Below, piece by piece: positions 28,895 through 52,849 of a stretch of 64,000 bases of DNA. Positions within the stretch are counted from its first letter, which is position 1. Every line of letters begins with the position of its first letter. The translations under genes and the position numbers were made by a program. The DNA is taken from positions 106,856 to 170,855 of the forward strand of contig NW_026516303.1 of the NCBI RefSeq assembly GCF_025602895.1. The letters are read 5' to 3'. Below the pieces are notes generated by a model, which saw nothing but the letters and a program-made list of their open reading frames with translations, did not search any database and had not been told where the DNA came from. This DNA is from Polychytrium aggregatum. Lineage: Eukaryota > Chytridiomycota > Chytridiomycetes > Polychytriales.

Positions 28895-29349
28895 CGCATC
28901 TTTGCTAATAAATACCGGGATACCCCGGATTTTGGCCGTTGATCAAATACGCTGTTGCCTCAAAACATCGTACGCTGACCATGACCGTTCAGTGATGCGT
29001 GTTTCTGGATCTGAATCAAGGATACTTTCTCGCTCAAATGGCTCCCTGCAAGCGAAACGCACCACCCAGGCGACCAAGTGGATCCAGAGCACCCACAAGG
29101 TCCTTGGTCTGCAGCAACGGACGAATGCCACACCAAGTCCCAAGATCTCCAGGTGTGCTCACAGTGCCGGGGAACCAAGCGACTCGAGAAGGCAGAGTCT
29201 CTTGATATTGATACACCATGGGAAATGCACCACACCAAGAGATTGCCAACCAGGACAGGAAACAATCGCCCACTGGAGCCTATGGAAGATCAGCAGACTT
29301 GTGTCGCTGATGCCAGAAAGTGACTGTCCCGTTTCTTTCTTATCGACTG
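28895..29349 (+). mobile_element. Non-autonomous element R2, copy 1 (MITE-like, related to the Fanzor element)
   Basis: The left part (GGATTTTGGCCGTTGATCAA, then CATCGTACGCTGACCATGAC and GTGATGCG) aligns with the left end of the 52504 MITE. The right end (GTGACTGTCCCGTTTCTTTC) is a variant of the terminal CGGGACA motif. The interior (GTGCTCACAGTGCC through GCAGACTTGTGTCGCTGA) recurs inverted at 36005-36320. No intact ORF. It abuts the full-length element at the TA 29350-29351. Confidence 0.75.
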
Positions 29350-29351
29350 TA

Positions 29352-29530
29352 CACTTTATTCAGAAAAAAAAAAACGGGACAATATAGCCGTTTCCATGAA
29401 CATGTAGTATGTGATGTGCTTGCGTCAAGCAAAGCTACAAGAAATAAAACAGATCACTTTGGCAGCCTCCGAGTGAAGACCACCGGTCGCTCTCCGATCT
29501 CCACAATCGACCTGCATACTGTGATCATGT
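29352..29530 (-). ncRNA. Candidate guide RNA (omega/fRNA) region at the Fanzor 3' end
   Basis: The last codons of Fanzor plus the 3' end of the element are conserved in the 52504 MITE although almost all protein-coding sequence is deleted there (ACCGGTGGTCTTCACTCGGA, then GGCTGCCAA and CATCACATACT). In TnpB and Fanzor systems the guide scaffold is read from this end and the guide comes from flanking DNA. An AATAAA (complement of 29355-29360) lies 3 bp from the element end, so transcript cleavage would fall outside it, as that model needs. RNA production is inference. Confidence 0.45.
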
Positions 29531-31825
29531 TGCGCGCCGCATTGACGTCGCGATTCCACACTGTCCGGCAGCTGGGATTCTTGCAGCTCCTGACAAAGTG
29601 GGAATTCGCAACCCTGGGCGCATCGAGTCCTTCCAACCGAACCGGCTCCAGGCACTTGGAGCACACTTGCGAGGTGTTGAACTCGTTCGTCGAGACTACC
29701 TTGACGCTTCCATGATGGTGATTGGGACGGCGTCGGTGGTGCTCGAATTGCTCAAAGTACCGAGCAAATCGCTGCCTCCGAGGGCTGGATGCATAGCCCT
29801 TGCCTTGTCGCCATGACGCATTGCCAAAGGCGATCACCACATCGGTCCGTATCGGGGCGTGCTTCAGGACGGCCTTGCACATCTTGTCGACGGCCACTTG
29901 GCGCCTCTTGTGGCCCGTGAAGCGATGGTGACGGGCCTTCTTGCCAAGGTGGAAGTCGAGCTGCACTCGCAGCTCCGGTCGCAGGACATGGGTGAGATGG
30001 ACCTTGAAGGCCTCCGAGGACGACACCTTGGGCGAGGGAGTGGTCGACATCCAGGTCTCGATGCTGAGTCGATACTTCATGATATTGTGCCACTTGGTGT
30101 TGGACGTATGGCCACACATTTGCTGGTAGTGGCCATTGGAGAATGAGACCACCTCGTCTTGGTGGCCCGGTGCTTGGATGACCGCCGTGAAGATGGAGCC
30201 GACTCCAGGATCGATGCCAATCCAAGTGGTGCGATCGGGGTCTGGGTCGCCGATGTGGGCCTGGATACGCTGCTCGGCGGTCGGAGGAGGCTCGGAGGTC
30301 TCGGTGCGATCGGTTCGAGGCAGAAACTTGACGAGGCCGATGGTGCATCCAATGCCATCGGTGCTGATCTCGTAGTTGAACAGCTTCTTGTTCACGTCCC
30401 GTTCTTGGAAGAGGGAACTACGCAGCTTGAAGCAACTGCGCCAGAGACGATCCTGGTTGTTGATGCCGTCCTCGCCTTCTTCCTTGAGCTTGTCCCGGGT
30501 GAGTCCAAGGCGCTTCTTTGGACCCAGGAGTTGCCAAAGAGTGACCGTGTCAATCTTGACATACTTGGCCTTGGTGGTGCACAGAGGAACCATCGTGCAC
30601 ACGGCCGGAGGAGTGTCGACGGCGAGCTACTTGAGAGCCCACTTGAGCCTGGATGCCAGCTTGTTGATCTTGGACTTGGTGGTGCCGAGCTCAGACTTGG
30701 CCGTGGTGAACCTCTTGTCGTCGGAGGGAATGCCTTGGGTAGTGAGGCTGTCCAGCTTGGCCTGGAGCTGCAGCTCGGTGACTCGGAGGGCGGACATGTC
30801 ACAGTCGATCCACTTGTGGACATTGTCGACCATCTTGTCCCGGTCGAGGATTCCCACATGGTGTGAGAGGCGATGGAGGGCCCGGAAGCGGTCCTGGTCG
30901 TTGCTGTACCGAAACTCGACCAGGACGTGGCCAAAGTCCGGGTAGAGGAACTCGAGATCGGCCTTGGGTGGAGTCTGCCCTGGTTTCTCGAAGAGCTCGA
31001 GACAGGCCTCGATGGCTTCGTGCTTGTGCTTGTTGGCTGGGAAGACGGCAGCGCAGAAGCGGCGAAGGAGTCGCCAGTAGGCCAGGTCGAGGTGGGTGGT
31101 GCAGTTGGTGGCATAGGCATTGACAGCCAGGGTGAGAAGCTGACTGTGAGCACCATCAGGCAGACGAGGGGCCGGAGGCAGGTCTGCGTGCCGAGTGGTC
31201 TGGTAGTCGCGAAAGGAAGCGACCAGATGCTCGTTGTATTTCTTGGTATCCCTGGCCGTCGAGAGGGCATCGGCCTGGACGATCCTGAAGCATTGGCGAA
31301 CGAAAGCAGGGGTGGACTTGGAGATGACGGGGACGGGAAGATCCTGCTCGATGCACCGGAGGATGTGCAGGTTGAGCAGCCTGGATGCCTCGAACTGGAT
31401 CTGGGTCATGGCCTCGACAGTGGCCTGGATCTTGTCGCGGAGAGCGGGATTGAGACAACAGCCATACATCGTCTGCTTGAAGCAGCTGAACTGAGGGGCG
31501 GATGACCTTCCATCCACGAGAGGGACGACAGAACTCTTGAGGGGCCGGTATTTGGACATTTGCTGGTGTTGCAACGTTCGTGATCGGTGCCATCGCACTG
31601 GCGACATCGCTTGCCGGTACTCGAGGAAGTAGATGGACCAGGCTCGGTGGGATCGACATCCATTGGATCTGCAGAAGCAGTGGTGGTGAGCGACGGAGCA
31701 ACAGACGAACAAGCATGCGTGGGGTCAGAATACGAACCAGAGACAGGCTCCGACTGTGACTTGGCTTTCTTGGGCCTGGGTGGCCGAGGCTGGCCATCAC
31801 CGGTACCCTTGCGCTTCGGAGGCAT
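29454..31825 (-). CDS. Fanzor (eukaryotic TnpB-like RNA-guided endonuclease), interrupted
   Basis: The start is at 31825 (MPPKRKGTGDGQ), 128 bp past a TATA box. The N-terminus has two basic nuclear-localisation-like patches and a small Cys/His cluster (KRCRQCDGTDHERCNTSKC). At about 31540-31600 the coding frame changes (NTSKCPNTG to SKYRPLKSSVVPL). A long helical region follows (for example FCAAVFPANKHKHEAIEACL). One in-frame TAG then interrupts at 30627-30629 (RLKWALK, stop, LAVDTPPAV); the same frame continues to 29454. RuvC-like motifs are WIGIDPGVGS (first Asp), VVIAFGNASW, STNEFNTS (the probable rearranged Glu) and RDVNAARNM (last Asp), with a zinc ribbon VCSKC...CKNPSC. All catalytic residues expected for Fanzor are present, so the breaks look recent. 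About 790 codons in total. Confidence 0.88.
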
Positions 31826-31952
31826 GGGGGCAGAGGATGCTGGATGCCTGCCAGTGGTACTGGTCAGAACAGAGACTTTTTTTATCGTACAATGGCGCGA
31901 TGATCCGATCAAGGCGAGATGAGGGAAGAAAGCAGCAGGACGAAGGTGTGGC

Positions 31953-31959
31953 ATTTATA
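31953..31959 (-). promoter_or_regulatory. TATA box of the Fanzor gene
   Basis: TATAAAT on the minus strand, 128 bp upstream of the Fanzor start and just past the transposase stop (32029). It suggests Fanzor has its own promoter within the element. Confidence 0.6.
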
Positions 31960-32028
31960 CCCGAGAGCAGGAACCCGTCTGCGCGGGCTGGTTGGGGAAG
32001 TGACCCTGTTCAAAAATCGCCGAGAGGT

Positions 32029-32880
32029 TCAAGCCAGGGATGTGAACGCGAAAATGGCGGCTTGATTGGAGGGACAACCCCAAATCGGTGGGGACTCAAC
32101 CCCAAAGAAGTTCTCGATGGGATTGAAGTCGGGCGAGGCAGGTGGGGTGAAGATCACTGACCATCCTCGGCGCTCGATGCAGTCCAGGATAGCCATTGTC
32201 TTGTGCATGCTGACATTGTCCATCACAATCACAGAGTCGTCTGGGAAGGTCGCTCGCTCAAAGAACTCGACCATCGAGTGTGTCTTGAATGATGTGGGGA
32301 TGTACATGCGATGCAGCACACCAGAGTGGTTGATGGCAAATGCAGCCGAGACAGACTTGTGTTTCATGTGATTGCGCTGGCGAAGCGGAGCACCCTTCGG
32401 CGAGTATCCGTAAAGAGGGAAAATGGATTTCCTGATCCCTGTCTCGTCGACAAAAACGAGCCGTCGTGGGTCGATGGAGCGGACCTGGTCCCTGAACTGT
32501 GCCACTCGCTCATCCAGTTGCTTGGACTTGTAGAGGTGTGTTGCCCTCTTGTGTGAGAGACCTGCTCGGTGGATGGCAGTGTGGCAGAGTGAGAGTGATA
32601 CTTTCCTCTGGAGGATGGACTCGAGCTTGCATCGCAACACAGGACCAGTCTGGAACGGGTCCTGTTCAATCAGGGTGCGAATGACTGGACATGCCTGCTC
32701 GAAGAAAGTGGATCTGCGAGCTGGGACCCGGGATGGGTCATCCAGCTTGCATCCTCGGTGCCATCGATGGATGGTGTTCTTGGATACACTGAATATGGAG
32801 GCGACCTTACGCAGGCTATGGATGAGGGCGTAGCATCGCAATGCGGCGGTGCGAAAGTCGGATGTGTGGCGAATGGTCAT
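32029..32880 (-). CDS. IS630/Tc1-mariner family DDE transposase
   Basis: Single exon, 283 codons from 32880 (MTIRHTSDFRTAALRCYAL). An N-terminal helix-turn-helix (LRKVASIFSVSKNTIHRWHR) should bind the terminal repeats. The catalytic core has RLVFVDETGIRKS (first Asp), SVIVMDNVSMHKT (second Asp) and SPDFNPIENFFG (Glu). Exactly 34 residues separate the last two, the DD34E spacing of Tc1/IS630. After the Glu motif the usual tail is replaced by about 25 atypical residues (ESPPIWGCPSNQ), so the C-terminus may be truncated or frame-shifted. First gene of the element, 75 bp before the Fanzor TATA box. Confidence 0.93.
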   Translation of the reverse strand: MTIRHTSDFRTAALRCYALIHSLRKVASIFSVSKNTIHRWHRGCKLDDPSRVPARRSTFFEQACPVIRTLIEQDPFQTGPVLRCKLESILQRKVSLSLCHTAIHRAGLSHKRATHLYKSKQLDERVAQFRDQVRSIDPRRLVFVDETGIRKSIFPLYGYSPKGAPLRQRNHMKHKSVSAAFAINHSGVLHRMYIPTSFKTHSMVEFFERATFPDDSVIVMDNVSMHKTMAILDCIERRGWSVIFTPPASPDFNPIENFFGVESPPIWGCPSNQAAIFAFTSLA

Positions 32881-32966
32881 GGCCAGCGCGCGATAACATT
32901 GGGTAACAAAATATTCGATGAATGGTCAAAAACCCGGGTGTCCCGTTTTTTATTGGATTGCCTGTA

Positions 32967-33817
32967 ATAAAACACGACCTAATTGCAGGTGTAGTGCGCG
33001 CGTAGGATGATGCATTGACAATCTGCGGCGATCTGGCGCACAGCAAACCGCCAGTATGCCAGGGCTTCGAGGCTGTTTGGGGTCACTGTGCGGTGTTCAT
33101 TGATAATTTGAGCGAATCCATCACCTGACCCCTCGAAAACAGCCAGACGCAGCAGCAGGAGGCATGAGGAGGATCACGGATTGCAAATGTGGCCGACATG
33201 TTTGTCACAGTGGCCGAGATTCGGGAGATATTTTCCGCTGCTCTGGCTACGCGGATGCTGAGCGGGATGCCCGGATGCGGATCTCGTTGTCGATTGGGCA
33301 AGTTGCCCGCTGCAAGGAGACGGGGATCAGGCATGCGGAACATCGCCGCCTCTGAGGATGCAGCGATGCAGGCAGCCAAGCCAAGCCCTTCGAAGCCAAG
33401 CCTCTCGAAGCCAACCAAGCAGGGGCACGCAGTGAGCGAAGGTTGGTCCGCGCCAAGCTTGGCTGGGCTGGGCTGGGCTGGTGAGGGCCGCATGGGACGG
33501 AATGGTAGAGCGTGCGGCGACGCCGATGTACGAGAGGTATAATTGGAATATGTTTGTATGTCCGTTTGAGGGAGAATTGCCTGCAGAGATTCGGAAACAA
33601 CAGGCGGGTGCTCGGAGCGTTTGGGTTTGCACCTGTGTTTTTCCGAGCGCAGGGGCGCTGGCCGGCACCAGGCCAGCCTTGCTGCGGCCACGGGCGGTCG
33701 CACAGATTTGAAGCCCAGGCGCCGAAAAAAAACGTTACAAATCGAGCGAACATAAAAACGGACGTGCTCGCCATCCCCGGCCAGCCAGCGAGCCCAGCAG
33801 TCATTGCCACGGATCAG
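32967..33817. other. Intergenic region between transposon and epimerase copy 2
   Basis: About 850 bp. Contains short CCAAGCCAAGCCC/TCGAAGCCAAGC and GGGCTGGGCT repeats at about 33370-33485. Overlapping ORFs in several frames carry no motif. Probably promoter DNA of epimerase copy 2. Confidence 0.5.
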
Positions 33818-45215: not shown

Positions 45216-46433
45216 ACGGGCCGGCCTCTGTGGTGGTGGTTGTGCGGTGGTGGCTGTATGGTAGTGGCTGTATGGTGGCGGTGGTGGTGGGTATCAAGTC
45301 AAGACTGCGATGCCTGTACGATATTGACTGAAATACATCCATAATCACGACGGGATACCGTCAAAGCTATGTTTGGATGCTCATCCTGAGATCAGCGATT
45401 CCGCTGACGAATGACATGGGCAGCGGCGGATCGGCAAATGCAGTTGTCTGGTCGAGCCCAAGTAACTTTGGTGATCGATCCATCGAGAATAAGAGCCAGA
45501 TACCCGTTGGTGTGGAACCGTATCCAGAGGTATGTATAGCGGCAGATGCCATCATGACCAGTACAAAGCATCCCGAGAAGGAACCAGCCAGCGCGACCGA
45601 CAATGTGATGCCCCGGCCCCCGCCCATGTTGGGAGAGCCCCGGTTTCGAGAACGCATTCTGTATTGGCCAGATTTCATCTGAGCCCGAGCCACAATAGAA
45701 TCCGTGCGCTGGCGAATCACGCACTTGCATCCCAGCGAGCTTCCCAACGATGTTGAGTGGAATGTTGCTGTTGATCCCGCTCGCCGCTCGCCTTTCGCCG
45801 TCTCCATCGCTTTCGGCAGACAGCTGCCATCCAAGCCAGCCCTTTCCACAGACCAGTCCAGACCAGCCCAGTCCAGACCAGCGACCGTCGGGCCAACGAA
45901 CCACCCGGCTATCCGAGGGGATACACGCGATTCTGGTCGTGAATGTGAGTGCCAACCGTGCCCGATATCGCCCAACAGGCCACCGTCTGTCAGGATCGCC
46001 GCTGCCCCTTCCGCACAAGCATCTTCCATCAGCACCGCCAACATCCTCCCCTTCCATCGCCATCAACACCGCCATGCCATTTCCATATCCATTTCCATTT
46101 CCATATCCTCCCCGACTGTCCCGCGTCGCACTGGTATCCATGGCATCGCCTGCCAAGGATGTGGCAGCGTCCGGCTCCTTGTGCGTGCGTCTGCCCAAAC
46201 AGACACGGCCTTGGCCACAAGTGCGCCCGCTGGACAGCATCCCGAGACATCCGCCGTCTCTTGAGCAGCTCGTCTCTGCCACGATCCTCTCCAGCCCCTC
46301 ATCGGCACCCTCTCCCCCTTCCCCATCCCTCCCTCTCTGTCCTCTGTCGATCTCCCATCCCATCCCGTCCCGTCCCTGAGCACAGCACCTCTCCCCCATC
46401 CCATCTGCAGCGTCGAGCCCCTCGTCCACAGCC
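45216..46433. other. Intergenic region upstream of recyclin-1
   Basis: About 1.2 kb, pyrimidine-rich near 46300-46430 as expected for a 5' UTR, with CCATTTCCATATCC repeats at 46077-46110 and CAGACCAGCCCAGTCCAGAC at about 45850-45890. Overlapping ORFs on both strands at 45367-46044 have no recognisable domain. Confidence 0.5.
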
Positions 46434-49400
46434 ATGTTGTCCCAATTCGTCAACTCTATAAACAACTCCGGTCTGATCCGGAAGGCCGACCTGCAGGGCT
46501 TGGCGATGCGGCGAACTCCCTCTTCGCAGTATCGCAATCTGCGAGAGTATTCTGACTCTAACAATCCGTGGGACCCTGCCTCCTCATCCAGCTCGCTTAC
46601 CTCTGACTGGGACGATCCCAACAGCGCCCCGCAGCAGCATCCCGGCCTTCGAGAAATGATAGCTTCCAAGAAGGCTGGCTCGTCCGTCGGCACCGGCAGC
46701 ACCACGTCGCCCAAGCTCATCACCTCGCTGCCGCCAGACCTTGTCATCCGCATCTTTTCATACCTGCATGTCTCGGATCTCCCAAAGGTTGCCTGCGTCT
46801 CGCGGCGCTTCAAGATCCTTGTGTACAACGATGCGGTCTATGCGCCAAAGCTCAAAGCCCTTGGCTATGTTATCGAAGGACCCGATACCCAGGCGGCGCT
46901 CGGCCAGACCAAGTCCGACGACTTGGTCGATATTCTCAACTCCCGGCTCCGCCAGTTGCCCGGCGGACAGTTCCTGCCCGGCAGCACACGATACCTCGAG
47001 ACCGGGACAATGTGGGGCGGCATCGCCGCTCCTTCGGGCGATGGCTCGTCGAGCGCCGCAGCCGCAGTCTCTTCCAACGAGCCGCTGCCGACAAATCCCC
47101 CTGAAATTGCGATTGAGCAGCCTGCACGGGAGGGCACCCCGGCACCGGTCAGTCCCGGCGGCGCCACGCCTTCTCAAAAGATCACCTCGACCTTGCCCTC
47201 AAAGCCCTCGCCCATCACTGTCGGTGCCGGTGGACTGAGGGCCAAGAGTCGCAACAGCAGCAACATCACCATCGGGATGAGGCGGTCGACCTCGGGCGTC
47301 GCGTCGGGTGTCTCGTCAGTCTCCAGTATTGTCGATGGATCGGCACGGGCCTCGCGCGAATCGTTCAAGCAGATCTACACAGAGCTCCTGCCATACTTTA
47401 TCGACTTTCGGAAGAAGCAAAAGGACTCGAAGCTGTTCAAGGACTTTAAGGACATCACCGACGTCGCCACCATTCTGCGCCGCCTGCGGCTTTTCTCGCG
47501 GGCGAAATTCCTCCCCAACTGCGACGACATTGATTTTTCTCTCGAGACGACAATCGAGTGGTTCGAGTCCATGGTCCTGGCTCAGTTCGACCGGGCTTAC
47601 GATACCAAGAGCTACGAGGAGATGCGTCAGAACGCCATGGCCTGCTTCAACCTCAACGGCGGCGCCTCGTGCGTGTCCCTCTTCGTGGCCAAGAACCCCA
47701 TCTTTTTCGACTCGACCTTCAACCCCTCCTTGATCAACGAGGCGGCGCGGCTGCAGGTCAATGGCATCAAGGCCTCGGGCTATGCCCTGGCCGACAACTT
47801 TGCATCGTTCATGGACCACCTGCTCAGCAACTCCCACGAGCAAATCTTGGTCATCTCCAAGGTTTTCCTGCCCCAAATGGATGCCGGCACGATCTTCATC
47901 ACCAAGGTCTTTGAGGACTCGGTGTCTGAGTATCTTAACTCGACTCTTGTTGCTGCTCGCGATGGCGAGTCCACCGGAATCTACCTCCACACCCTGGCGG
48001 CCACGGTTCACTGCTGCAGCCAGTATGTCGAGTTCATTTCCAGCAACGCGCATGGCGTTGCGCTTCAGACCGATAACTTGAAGCTCGCTGTGGCGGCCAT
48101 GTTCAAGCCGTATGCCGAGACGTACATAAATCAGGAAATTGACTACATGCTCAAGGCTTTTGAGGGCGAGTTTATGCGCTGGAAAAACAGGGTAAGTGCA
48201 GCACTGCCTCTGGTCGACACCCTCGGGTATGCACGGATGCATGTGTGCATGCGCACGCCAATACGGGCGAGCGTAAACCCAGACAGGATGGAGACCAATC
48301 CCTCCCCCGCAATCTCGCTTCGGCTGGCTGGGATACAGCAAGCACCAGCTGCCTCGTTGGAGTCTGTGATGCCTGTCTTACTCGTCTCGTAATGGTAACC
48401 GTGCTTTTGCGCTGCCGACAATAGAAAAGCAAGGCCGGAAAGCCCACGTCTGACCCGAGTTACATGACTGATGTTGAACAGTCGGTCGCCCATAAGCGCC
48501 ATGTGATGCAGACCTTCAAGACGGTCCTGTTCGCACCCGTCGCCCTCACGATGACGATCGGCACAACGATAGGTAGCACGGTACTTGGAAAGAAATCAGC
48601 GCAGCCCCAAAGTGCCACTACGCCTGTTGCCGAAGTCACCGACGACGGGAAGGTCCGATCGGTCACCTACCATCTGGACGATGGCTCCCTATCGCGTCTG
48701 GTATCGCTGGAACTTTCCTTGAACCTGATTCACTTCAACAAGGAAAGCCTTGGCCGCGCAATGGTCATTACAGCGGCAACCGACTATTCCAAGCTGTAAG
48801 TAGCACCTGCCAGAATCCGATGACATTTGAGTGCGTGGATGTGTGGATGTATGATCTGTGGCTGTGTGGATGTTGGTCAATGAGGCGGCGTGCGCAGCTG
48901 GATAGACTAAAACTAGAACGGAAACTAAAGCTGAGCTACGTGTGTCTGTCTGCATCTCACAGGAGGATCAACATCGAAAAGATCTTTGTGAGGCTGCTCA
49001 AGGCCCTTGGAGAGAAGCACCTTAAACCTGGATTTGTGGCGTAAGTGTCGGCACACACGATGCGCCATGGGGCGCTCGTGTTGGCAGGTTCCGTTGTGCA
49101 TTCAATGATCAGACCAAGATACGCGAATCAGCGTCCCATTTGCTGACGAGGTACTCTGGATTTGTCGTCATCTACCCAACTGGCACTTTGCTCACTTGTT
49201 GCGCATGGCCTCTCACAGGGCCACCGATCAGCTGACGATGGTTGTCGACGGCAAGACCCAGTCCGGCGCAACCGACTCGATGGAATTCTTCGAGCTGGTG
49301 CATATCGGCGACCTGATCTCCCAGATGGTGGATGCGTACTACTGCGAGGATATTGTAGGTGACTGGGTAGCTCTGGGCATCGGGCGCTGGTCAGCTTTCT

Positions 49401-52503: not shown

Positions 52504-52849
52504 CAGTCATTCCAATAAAACACGGGACACATTGGTTTTGACCATTGATCAAATGATTTGTTGCCCAATACCATCGCACCCTGGCCAAGACCATTCTGTG
52601 ATGCGGTGCAATACCATCATCCGTGGCCTGAGAAAAGTTGCCCCCCATATTCAGCGTCCAAAAGCACCAGTCACCGCTGGCATTCCAAGACCAGTGTGCA
52701 TGTCGATTGTGGATACCGGAGAGCACCGGTGGTCTTCACTCGGAGGCTGCCAAGGTTATCTGTTATATTTCTTATGGCTCCGCTAGACGCAAGCCATCAC
52801 ATACTTCATGTTTATGGAAGCGCGTGTGTCCCGTTTTCTGAATAAAGTG
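52504..52849 (+). mobile_element. MITE: internally deleted Fanzor/IS630 element
   Basis: 346 bp. The left 150 bp match the 5' end of the full element (CCAATAAAACACGGGACACA, GTTTTGACCATTGATCAAAT, CCTGGCCAAGACCATTC = start of the transposase gene). The right 180 bp match the Fanzor 3' end (ACCGGTGGTCTTCACTCGGA) up to GTGTCCCGTTTTCTGAATAA. TA follows the right end (52850); the left flank has CG in place of TA. The right end lies only 12 bp beyond the stop codon of the isopropylmalate synthase gene. Confidence 0.9.

Follow-up and report, generated by a model that had tools for sequence, protein, structure and literature searches.

Introduction

Elements that encode a Fanzor1 protein together with a Mariner transposase and are flanked by TA have been known since 2013 (Bao and Jurka 2013, PMC3627910), and the combination as such is not new. 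High copy number is not unique either, since the Fanzor element CMe-1A reaches about 150 copies (PMC3627910). The element SPu-1 of Spizellomyces punctatus, source of the nuclease SpuFz1, has a conserved CA outside its 5' end, and the measured target-adjacent motif (TAM) is CATA (Saito 2023, PMC10432273). In the same fungus, the ends and a region resembling the source of the omegaRNA are preserved at 134 gene-free ghost loci (PMC10432273). Here we describe a locus of the chytrid Polychytrium aggregatum, located at positions 29352-32964 of a 64,000-nucleotide stretch of contig NW_026516303.1 (the window). It is a single TA-flanked transposon of the Tc1/mariner-IS630 type and carries a DD34E transposase gene and a Fanzor gene, both on the minus strand.

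Why eukaryotic transposons carry Fanzor genes is an open question. We consider it about two in three likely that the locus represents a single decayed member of a large Tc1/mariner (IS630, DD34E) family that encodes a Fanzor1-type, putatively RNA-guided nuclease, and that insertions of this family are retained by a mechanism based on the TAM of the Fanzor protein. In this family, more than 100 Fanzor matches were scored, independent insertion sites number in the dozens, and some sites are occupied by a copy on each of two contigs. The family also yields a concrete TAM prediction, TTA, which makes the retention hypothesis testable.

Structure of the element and its genes

The TA of the target-site duplication lies at 29350-29351 on the left and at 32965-32966 on the right. 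The left terminal repeat lies at 29352-29381 (plus strand) and the right terminal repeat at 32939-32964 (minus strand). Both carry the motif CGGGACA, at 29375-29381, where it closes the left repeat, and in reversed form at 32939-32945. The inner inverted repeat is 16 nt long, 94% complementary and set in from the ends, and the outer bases pair imperfectly. The sequence AAACGGGACA occurs four times in the window, compared to 0.09 expected occurrences.

In a genomic search (query base 51 corresponds to window position 29350), 37 of the 39 other matches reaching the left end begin at query positions 48-53, i.e. at about 29347-29352 of the window; the remaining two begin at positions 44 and 23. 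An unfiltered comparison with the sampled loci placed the start of every left-end match at element base 1. Of the unique flanks, 34 of 35 on the left and 53 of 55 on the right have the target-site TA. The sequence-only reading of this stretch had proposed a complete Tc1/mariner-IS630 transposon with a Fanzor gene, flanked by TA on both sides, with a shared CGGGACA motif and with ends at 29352 and 32964 that should recur elsewhere. Unit, class, gene content, TA, motif and recurrent ends all hold, but 'complete' does not, because both genes are broken in the window copy.

Directly against the left TA lies a decayed and older relative of the element (approximately 28907-29349). The window copy therefore entered at the border of a previous insertion, which is why a CGGGACA motif is also found just outside the element.

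The Fanzor gene (29454-31825, minus strand) is interrupted in the window copy by an in-frame TAG stop codon at 30627-30629 and, in comparison to intact copies, by a frameshift near 31550. Intact versions elsewhere in the genome (loci L018 and L019; L numbers denote loci and C numbers contigs) encode a Fanzor protein of 790 residues and a transposase of 310 residues. The RuvC and zinc ribbon motifs named in the sequence-only reading are present in the frames of the window copy, and in the search with hidden Markov models that it had called for, the Fanzor protein passes the cut-off of PF07282 but not that of guided_TnpB, and the transposase passes that of the IS630 model. The zinc ribbon model PF07282 (TNB) is matched with an E value of 2.1e-10 by the frame of the window itself and with 38 bits (cut-off 26.3) by an intact copy. 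The intact protein has the RuvC residues Asp539, Glu715 and Asp760, with the zinc-side context E-FNTSQV-CSKC. It thereby shows both fingerprints described for Fanzors (PMC10711439), a DPG motif, here at Asp539, and a glutamate six residues ahead of the zinc motif, here Glu715 before the first CxxC. In a comparison of the C-terminal part with structure database chains, two LaTranC chains rank ahead of SpuFz1 (E values 0.066 and 0.075). In viral contigs, no close relative matching any of six peptide patterns was found.

The transposase gene (32029-32880, minus strand) lies upstream of the Fanzor gene. It has lost its C-terminal part, as about 126 bp that are present in many copies (e.g. C1:1195632-1199371) are deleted near 32082-32097, and it ends in a foreign frame. 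It was assigned to the IS630 type with the models NF033545 (NCBIfam; 125.3 bits, cut-off 100) and DDE_3 (PF13358; 85.2 bits, cut-off 28.6), the latter being matched with an E value of 1.2e-21 by the frame of the window itself. In an intact copy, 34 residues separate Asp221 from Glu256, which confirms the DD34E spacing read from the window.

Flanking sequences and predicted target-adjacent motif

Right flanks were gathered from 20 full loci and from 39 of 40 sampled transposase loci, one of which lacked a readable end. Among the 55 unique sequences of these 59 flanks, TAA was found 50 times, TAG twice, and TAT, TCA and AAA once each. An A thus follows the right TA in 50 of 53 flanks, compared to 14.1% of the TA sites in the window (p = 4e-39), and one base further on, 42 of 53 have T or A. 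A T precedes the left TA in five of 34 unique flanks, which equals the background rate. The flank preference is hence one-sided, with a predominant A on the right and a free base on the left. Read on the Fanzor strand, TTA (32965-32967 in the window) stands before the element, and TA and the flank on the far side come after it.

Two paralogous stretches of the genome resemble unfilled sites, each with a single TA, although the alignments are weak. Since one of them reads GTAATGCTG (the other paralog has a C), the flanking A seems to belong to the target and not to the element.

The same motif accompanies gene-free derivatives of about 340-380 bp that keep both ends. One of them, at 52504-52849 of the window, is 346 bp long, of which about 158 bp derive from the left end and 93 bp from the right. 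The genome contains at least 40 scored matches like this derivative; they are 75-84% identical, save for one near-identical copy (C364). In the sample of short derivatives (L051-L070, with L054, L056 and L061 uncounted as their right end was not located), TAA was found in 10 of 13 unique sequences with a located right end. An alignment of 20 sequences indicates that the left-end region 29352-29476 is kept in these derivatives.

By analogy, these observations suggest that TTA is the TAM of the Fanzor protein, as it is placed like the CATA of SpuFz1. Because the layout is the same as in the S. punctatus element, we predict the flank beyond 29350 as guide and the region 29352-29476 (minus strand), comprising the last Fanzor codons, the 3' region and the left end, as candidate omegaRNA scaffold. 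The transposase would excise the element and insert it at TA. A Fanzor transcript that reaches the left terminus and continues into the flank would take up this flank as the guide of the omegaRNA. The nuclease would then recognise an empty site by its TTA and the guide sequence behind it. Filled sites would be protected by a rule separating self from non-self, as the element's own end places G, and not T, before the TA. Cutting of empty sites would lead to repair that restores the element by copying, and insertions at TTA would thereby be retained.

On the Fanzor strand, the left end (29352-29362) contains an AATAAA four bases short of the terminus; it is absent from some derivatives. Were it to serve as a polyadenylation signal, the 3' end of the transcript would lie within the flank and the guide would be part of it. 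In the window copy, the stretch that would be the guide is the terminal repeat of the decayed relative at 28907-29349.

Several results weigh against this interpretation. In the putative omegaRNA region, no covariation was found, folding was unremarkable in the three sequences tested (z scores -1.5, 1.2 and -1.2) and an Rfam search gave no match up to an E value of 0.5. A search of the genome for an allelic empty site found none. The guided_TnpB model reaches only 27 bits (cut-off 100) with the Fanzor protein, and the spacing between DPG and glutamate of 173 exceeds the 120-160 of the search pattern used for prokaryotic relatives (PMC10711439). The full protein matched no chain of the PDB at an E value of 0.1, and its C-terminal 290 residues matched SpuFz1 only weakly (E value 0.15).

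A preference of the transposase would also give the same flanks. The transposition complex would then tell the two ends apart and insert in fixed orientation into TAA, with no involvement of the Fanzor protein. An oriented complex is conceivable, as the two terminal repeats differ in sequence, and the gene-free derivatives carry the motif as well. These derivatives do not separate the two explanations, because they keep the candidate omegaRNA region. The strict one-sidedness (50 of 53 compared to five of 34) argues against the transposase, since a symmetric complex targeting TA should, by our reasoning, give both orientations. We therefore regard an origin of the motif in the transposase as somewhat unlikely, although it retains real weight.

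Selection on the genes

The Fanzor gene is under purifying selection. The ratio of nonsynonymous to synonymous polymorphism (pN/pS) is 0.30 among 22 copies with an intact frame and lowest, at 0.22, over residues 561-790, which include the RuvC and zinc ribbon regions. Variants found in a single copy (singletons) comprise 109 nonsynonymous and 97 synonymous changes, a ratio of 1.12 compared to 3.08 expected under uniform mutation, an expectation that ignores transition bias. For the transposase, the singleton ratio is 86/37 = 2.32 over the first 205 codons of 14 copies, all identified through their similarity to a copy whose transposase is broken. Its pN/pS is 0.76 on average, with a median of 0.53, in a first count that includes the deletion-bearing copy L011; the second count excludes this copy. 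Neither the selection counts nor the linkage counts given below include duplicate loci or partner alleles.

These values speak against the Fanzor gene being passive cargo with no present role, which we consider improbable. In favour of passive cargo, 34 of the 106 listed Fanzor matches have no stop-free frame of 790 codons; the other 72 have a frame of at least this length. Selection could also act on transposing lineages rather than on each copy.

Copies in the genome and pairing of the genes

The searched genome comprises 64.7 Mb in 418 contigs. The counts of Fanzor (106) and transposase (137) matches are lower bounds, as only the best candidates were scored. Stop-free frames of at least 310 codons were found in 81 of the 137 listed transposase matches. 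Full loci were chosen by likeness to the window copy with its truncated transposase, so that the state of the transposase in them is no fair sample.

Judged by coordinates, 56 of the 106 listed Fanzor matches are paired with a correctly placed transposase from the list. The remaining 81 transposase matches lack a listed Fanzor gene; three of them had already been sampled, and 20 were drawn from the other 78. Fanzor DNA was found downstream in 17 of these 20, and none was present in the slice read for the other three. The expectation of the sequence-only reading that the two genes move together thus agrees with their pairing in most sampled copies. Likewise, its statement that some Fanzor genes sit in mariner-like elements matches the published record (PMC3627910).

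The partial overlap of the two match lists and the three slices with no Fanzor DNA would fit two neighbouring elements, one per gene, an explanation that we reject as the remaining 17 slices do contain it and, in all 19 further loci whose two ends were read (L002-L020), the same termini enclose one unit of 3.2-3.7 kb.

Elsewhere in the window, at 46380-48389, a gene joins an F-box and a Sec10 domain.

Copies at the same site and apparent shuffling of variants

Some copies share one site on two contigs, which are probably haplotypes, and ten such pairs were compared. Six of them were compared over 2.7 kb together with their flanks. Within the element, L001/L022 differ at 29 positions (flank 1/1298), L006/L025 at 89 (2/1294), L016/L043 at 96 (4/1300), L036/L037 at 15 (0/1300), L008/L073 at 114 (1/300) and L047/L048 at one (2/1299). 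Non-allelic copies differ at a median of 108 positions (range 64-150, 814 pairs). The other four pairs (L002/L094, L003/L110, L102/L135 and L106/L136) were compared in slices and show 21/501, 18/501, 25/493 and 6/374 differences; here the flank comparison covered just some 30 bases on the right, which are identical except for a run-length difference in one pair. Medians of 21, 13 and 19 differences to unrelated copies were obtained for the first three slice pairs. Taken together, in six of the ten pairs the two copies diverge roughly as much as unrelated ones, three pairs are partly alike and one is alike. The partner is not in every case a distant copy: ranked by closeness among 41 copies, it came first for L025 and 9th for L006, 13th for L016 and 4th for L043, and 33rd for L008 and 11th for L073. 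Between 72 and 100% of the allelic differences are found as variants in other copies, compared to a baseline of 76% for 200 random pairs, which alone proves little.

Linkage between variants, calculated as mean r2 across 35 non-allelic copies, falls from 0.51 at distances of 1-3 bp to 0.22 at 4-10 bp and 0.07 at 11-20 bp, and it stays near the shuffled level of 0.03 from 21 bp to 2.7 kb. Of 628 variants, 260 are singletons. The outlier L033, with 664 differences from the majority, was left out of the linkage and singleton counts and kept in the comparisons of same-site pairs and short derivatives. Judged from these sequences, the copies appear to behave like a freely recombining population.

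Such shuffling would be due either to pervasive ectopic gene conversion, possibly driven by the Fanzor protein, or to an artefact of assembly in which reads of similar copies were mixed. We take the artefact as a serious contender at somewhat less than even odds. Mixing would give equidistant copies, and indeed no near-identical non-allelic pair was found (minimum of 64 differences in 814 pairs). On the other hand, mixing by majority should presumably erase singletons, which are frequent and carry the signature of selection described above. L008 and L073 differ in length by 168 bp at one site, and the four pairs that are partly or wholly alike also argue against it.

Excision followed by repair with template switching would be a natural cause of pervasive ectopic gene conversion. 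It is thus conceivable, if speculative and on balance rather unlikely, that copies are repeatedly excised and rebuilt, with the Fanzor protein cutting the empty site and repair starting on the homolog and then switching among dispersed copies. If true, this would account for copies that diverge at one site beside identical flanks, for the loss of linkage past about 20 bp, for the frequency of internal deletions and for the restriction of retained insertions to TTA. The shuffling would then be a genome-wide footprint of element recovery driven by the Fanzor protein and a population-genetic trace of a Fanzor element. If real, it is the part of this analysis most likely to surprise a specialist.

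Repeat-induced point mutation was considered as a source of the divergence and is unsupported, as 60 of 166 common variants are transversions. Retrotransposons were uninformative as a linkage control, since 18 of 18 sampled reverse-transcriptase copies are identical over 401 bp. A second DNA-transposon family (PF03184) gave no match in the genome, and the control genomes gave none either. Among same-site pairs of short derivatives, four of five differ by 0-2 bases and L052/L055 by 9/532; they are too short and too diverged to serve as a control. Near-identical reverse-transcriptase genes also form clusters on both strands with copies a few kb apart (for example at C1:1275421-1320684, C115, C201 and C366), and these clusters are possibly centromeric.

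Comparison with known systems

A literature search that excluded subscription papers returned no paper whose title concerns gene conversion in Fanzor elements, and none pairing Fanzor with IS630. The closest described elements are PUl-1 and PGv-1 (PMC3627910), which, like the family described here, combine Fanzor1 with a Mariner-like transposase, terminal repeats and TA duplications. They differ in host and protein. The flank motif, the gene-free derivatives bearing it and the comparison of same-site copies are features of the present family that do not appear in the available account of PUl-1 and PGv-1.

SPu-1 resembles the family in being a TA-flanked Fanzor1 element with conserved outside bases and with many gene-free ghosts, in which the ends and the omegaRNA region persist. 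According to the available account, it differs in having a single open reading frame and no transposase, and its TAM is CATA instead of the TTA predicted here. The measured TAM of GtFz1 from Guillardia theta, TTAA(N), is close to this prediction, although it stems from another lineage (PMC10432273, PMC11423790). The most abundant genomic repeat of the green alga Auxenochlorella is an element that encodes Fanzor; the available text calls it uncharacterised and does not mention a transposase (PMC12633428). The Polychytrium family belongs to the known kind of element that pairs Fanzor1 with a Mariner transposase, and it combines a transposase of its own with numerous open Fanzor frames and a clear motif in the flank.

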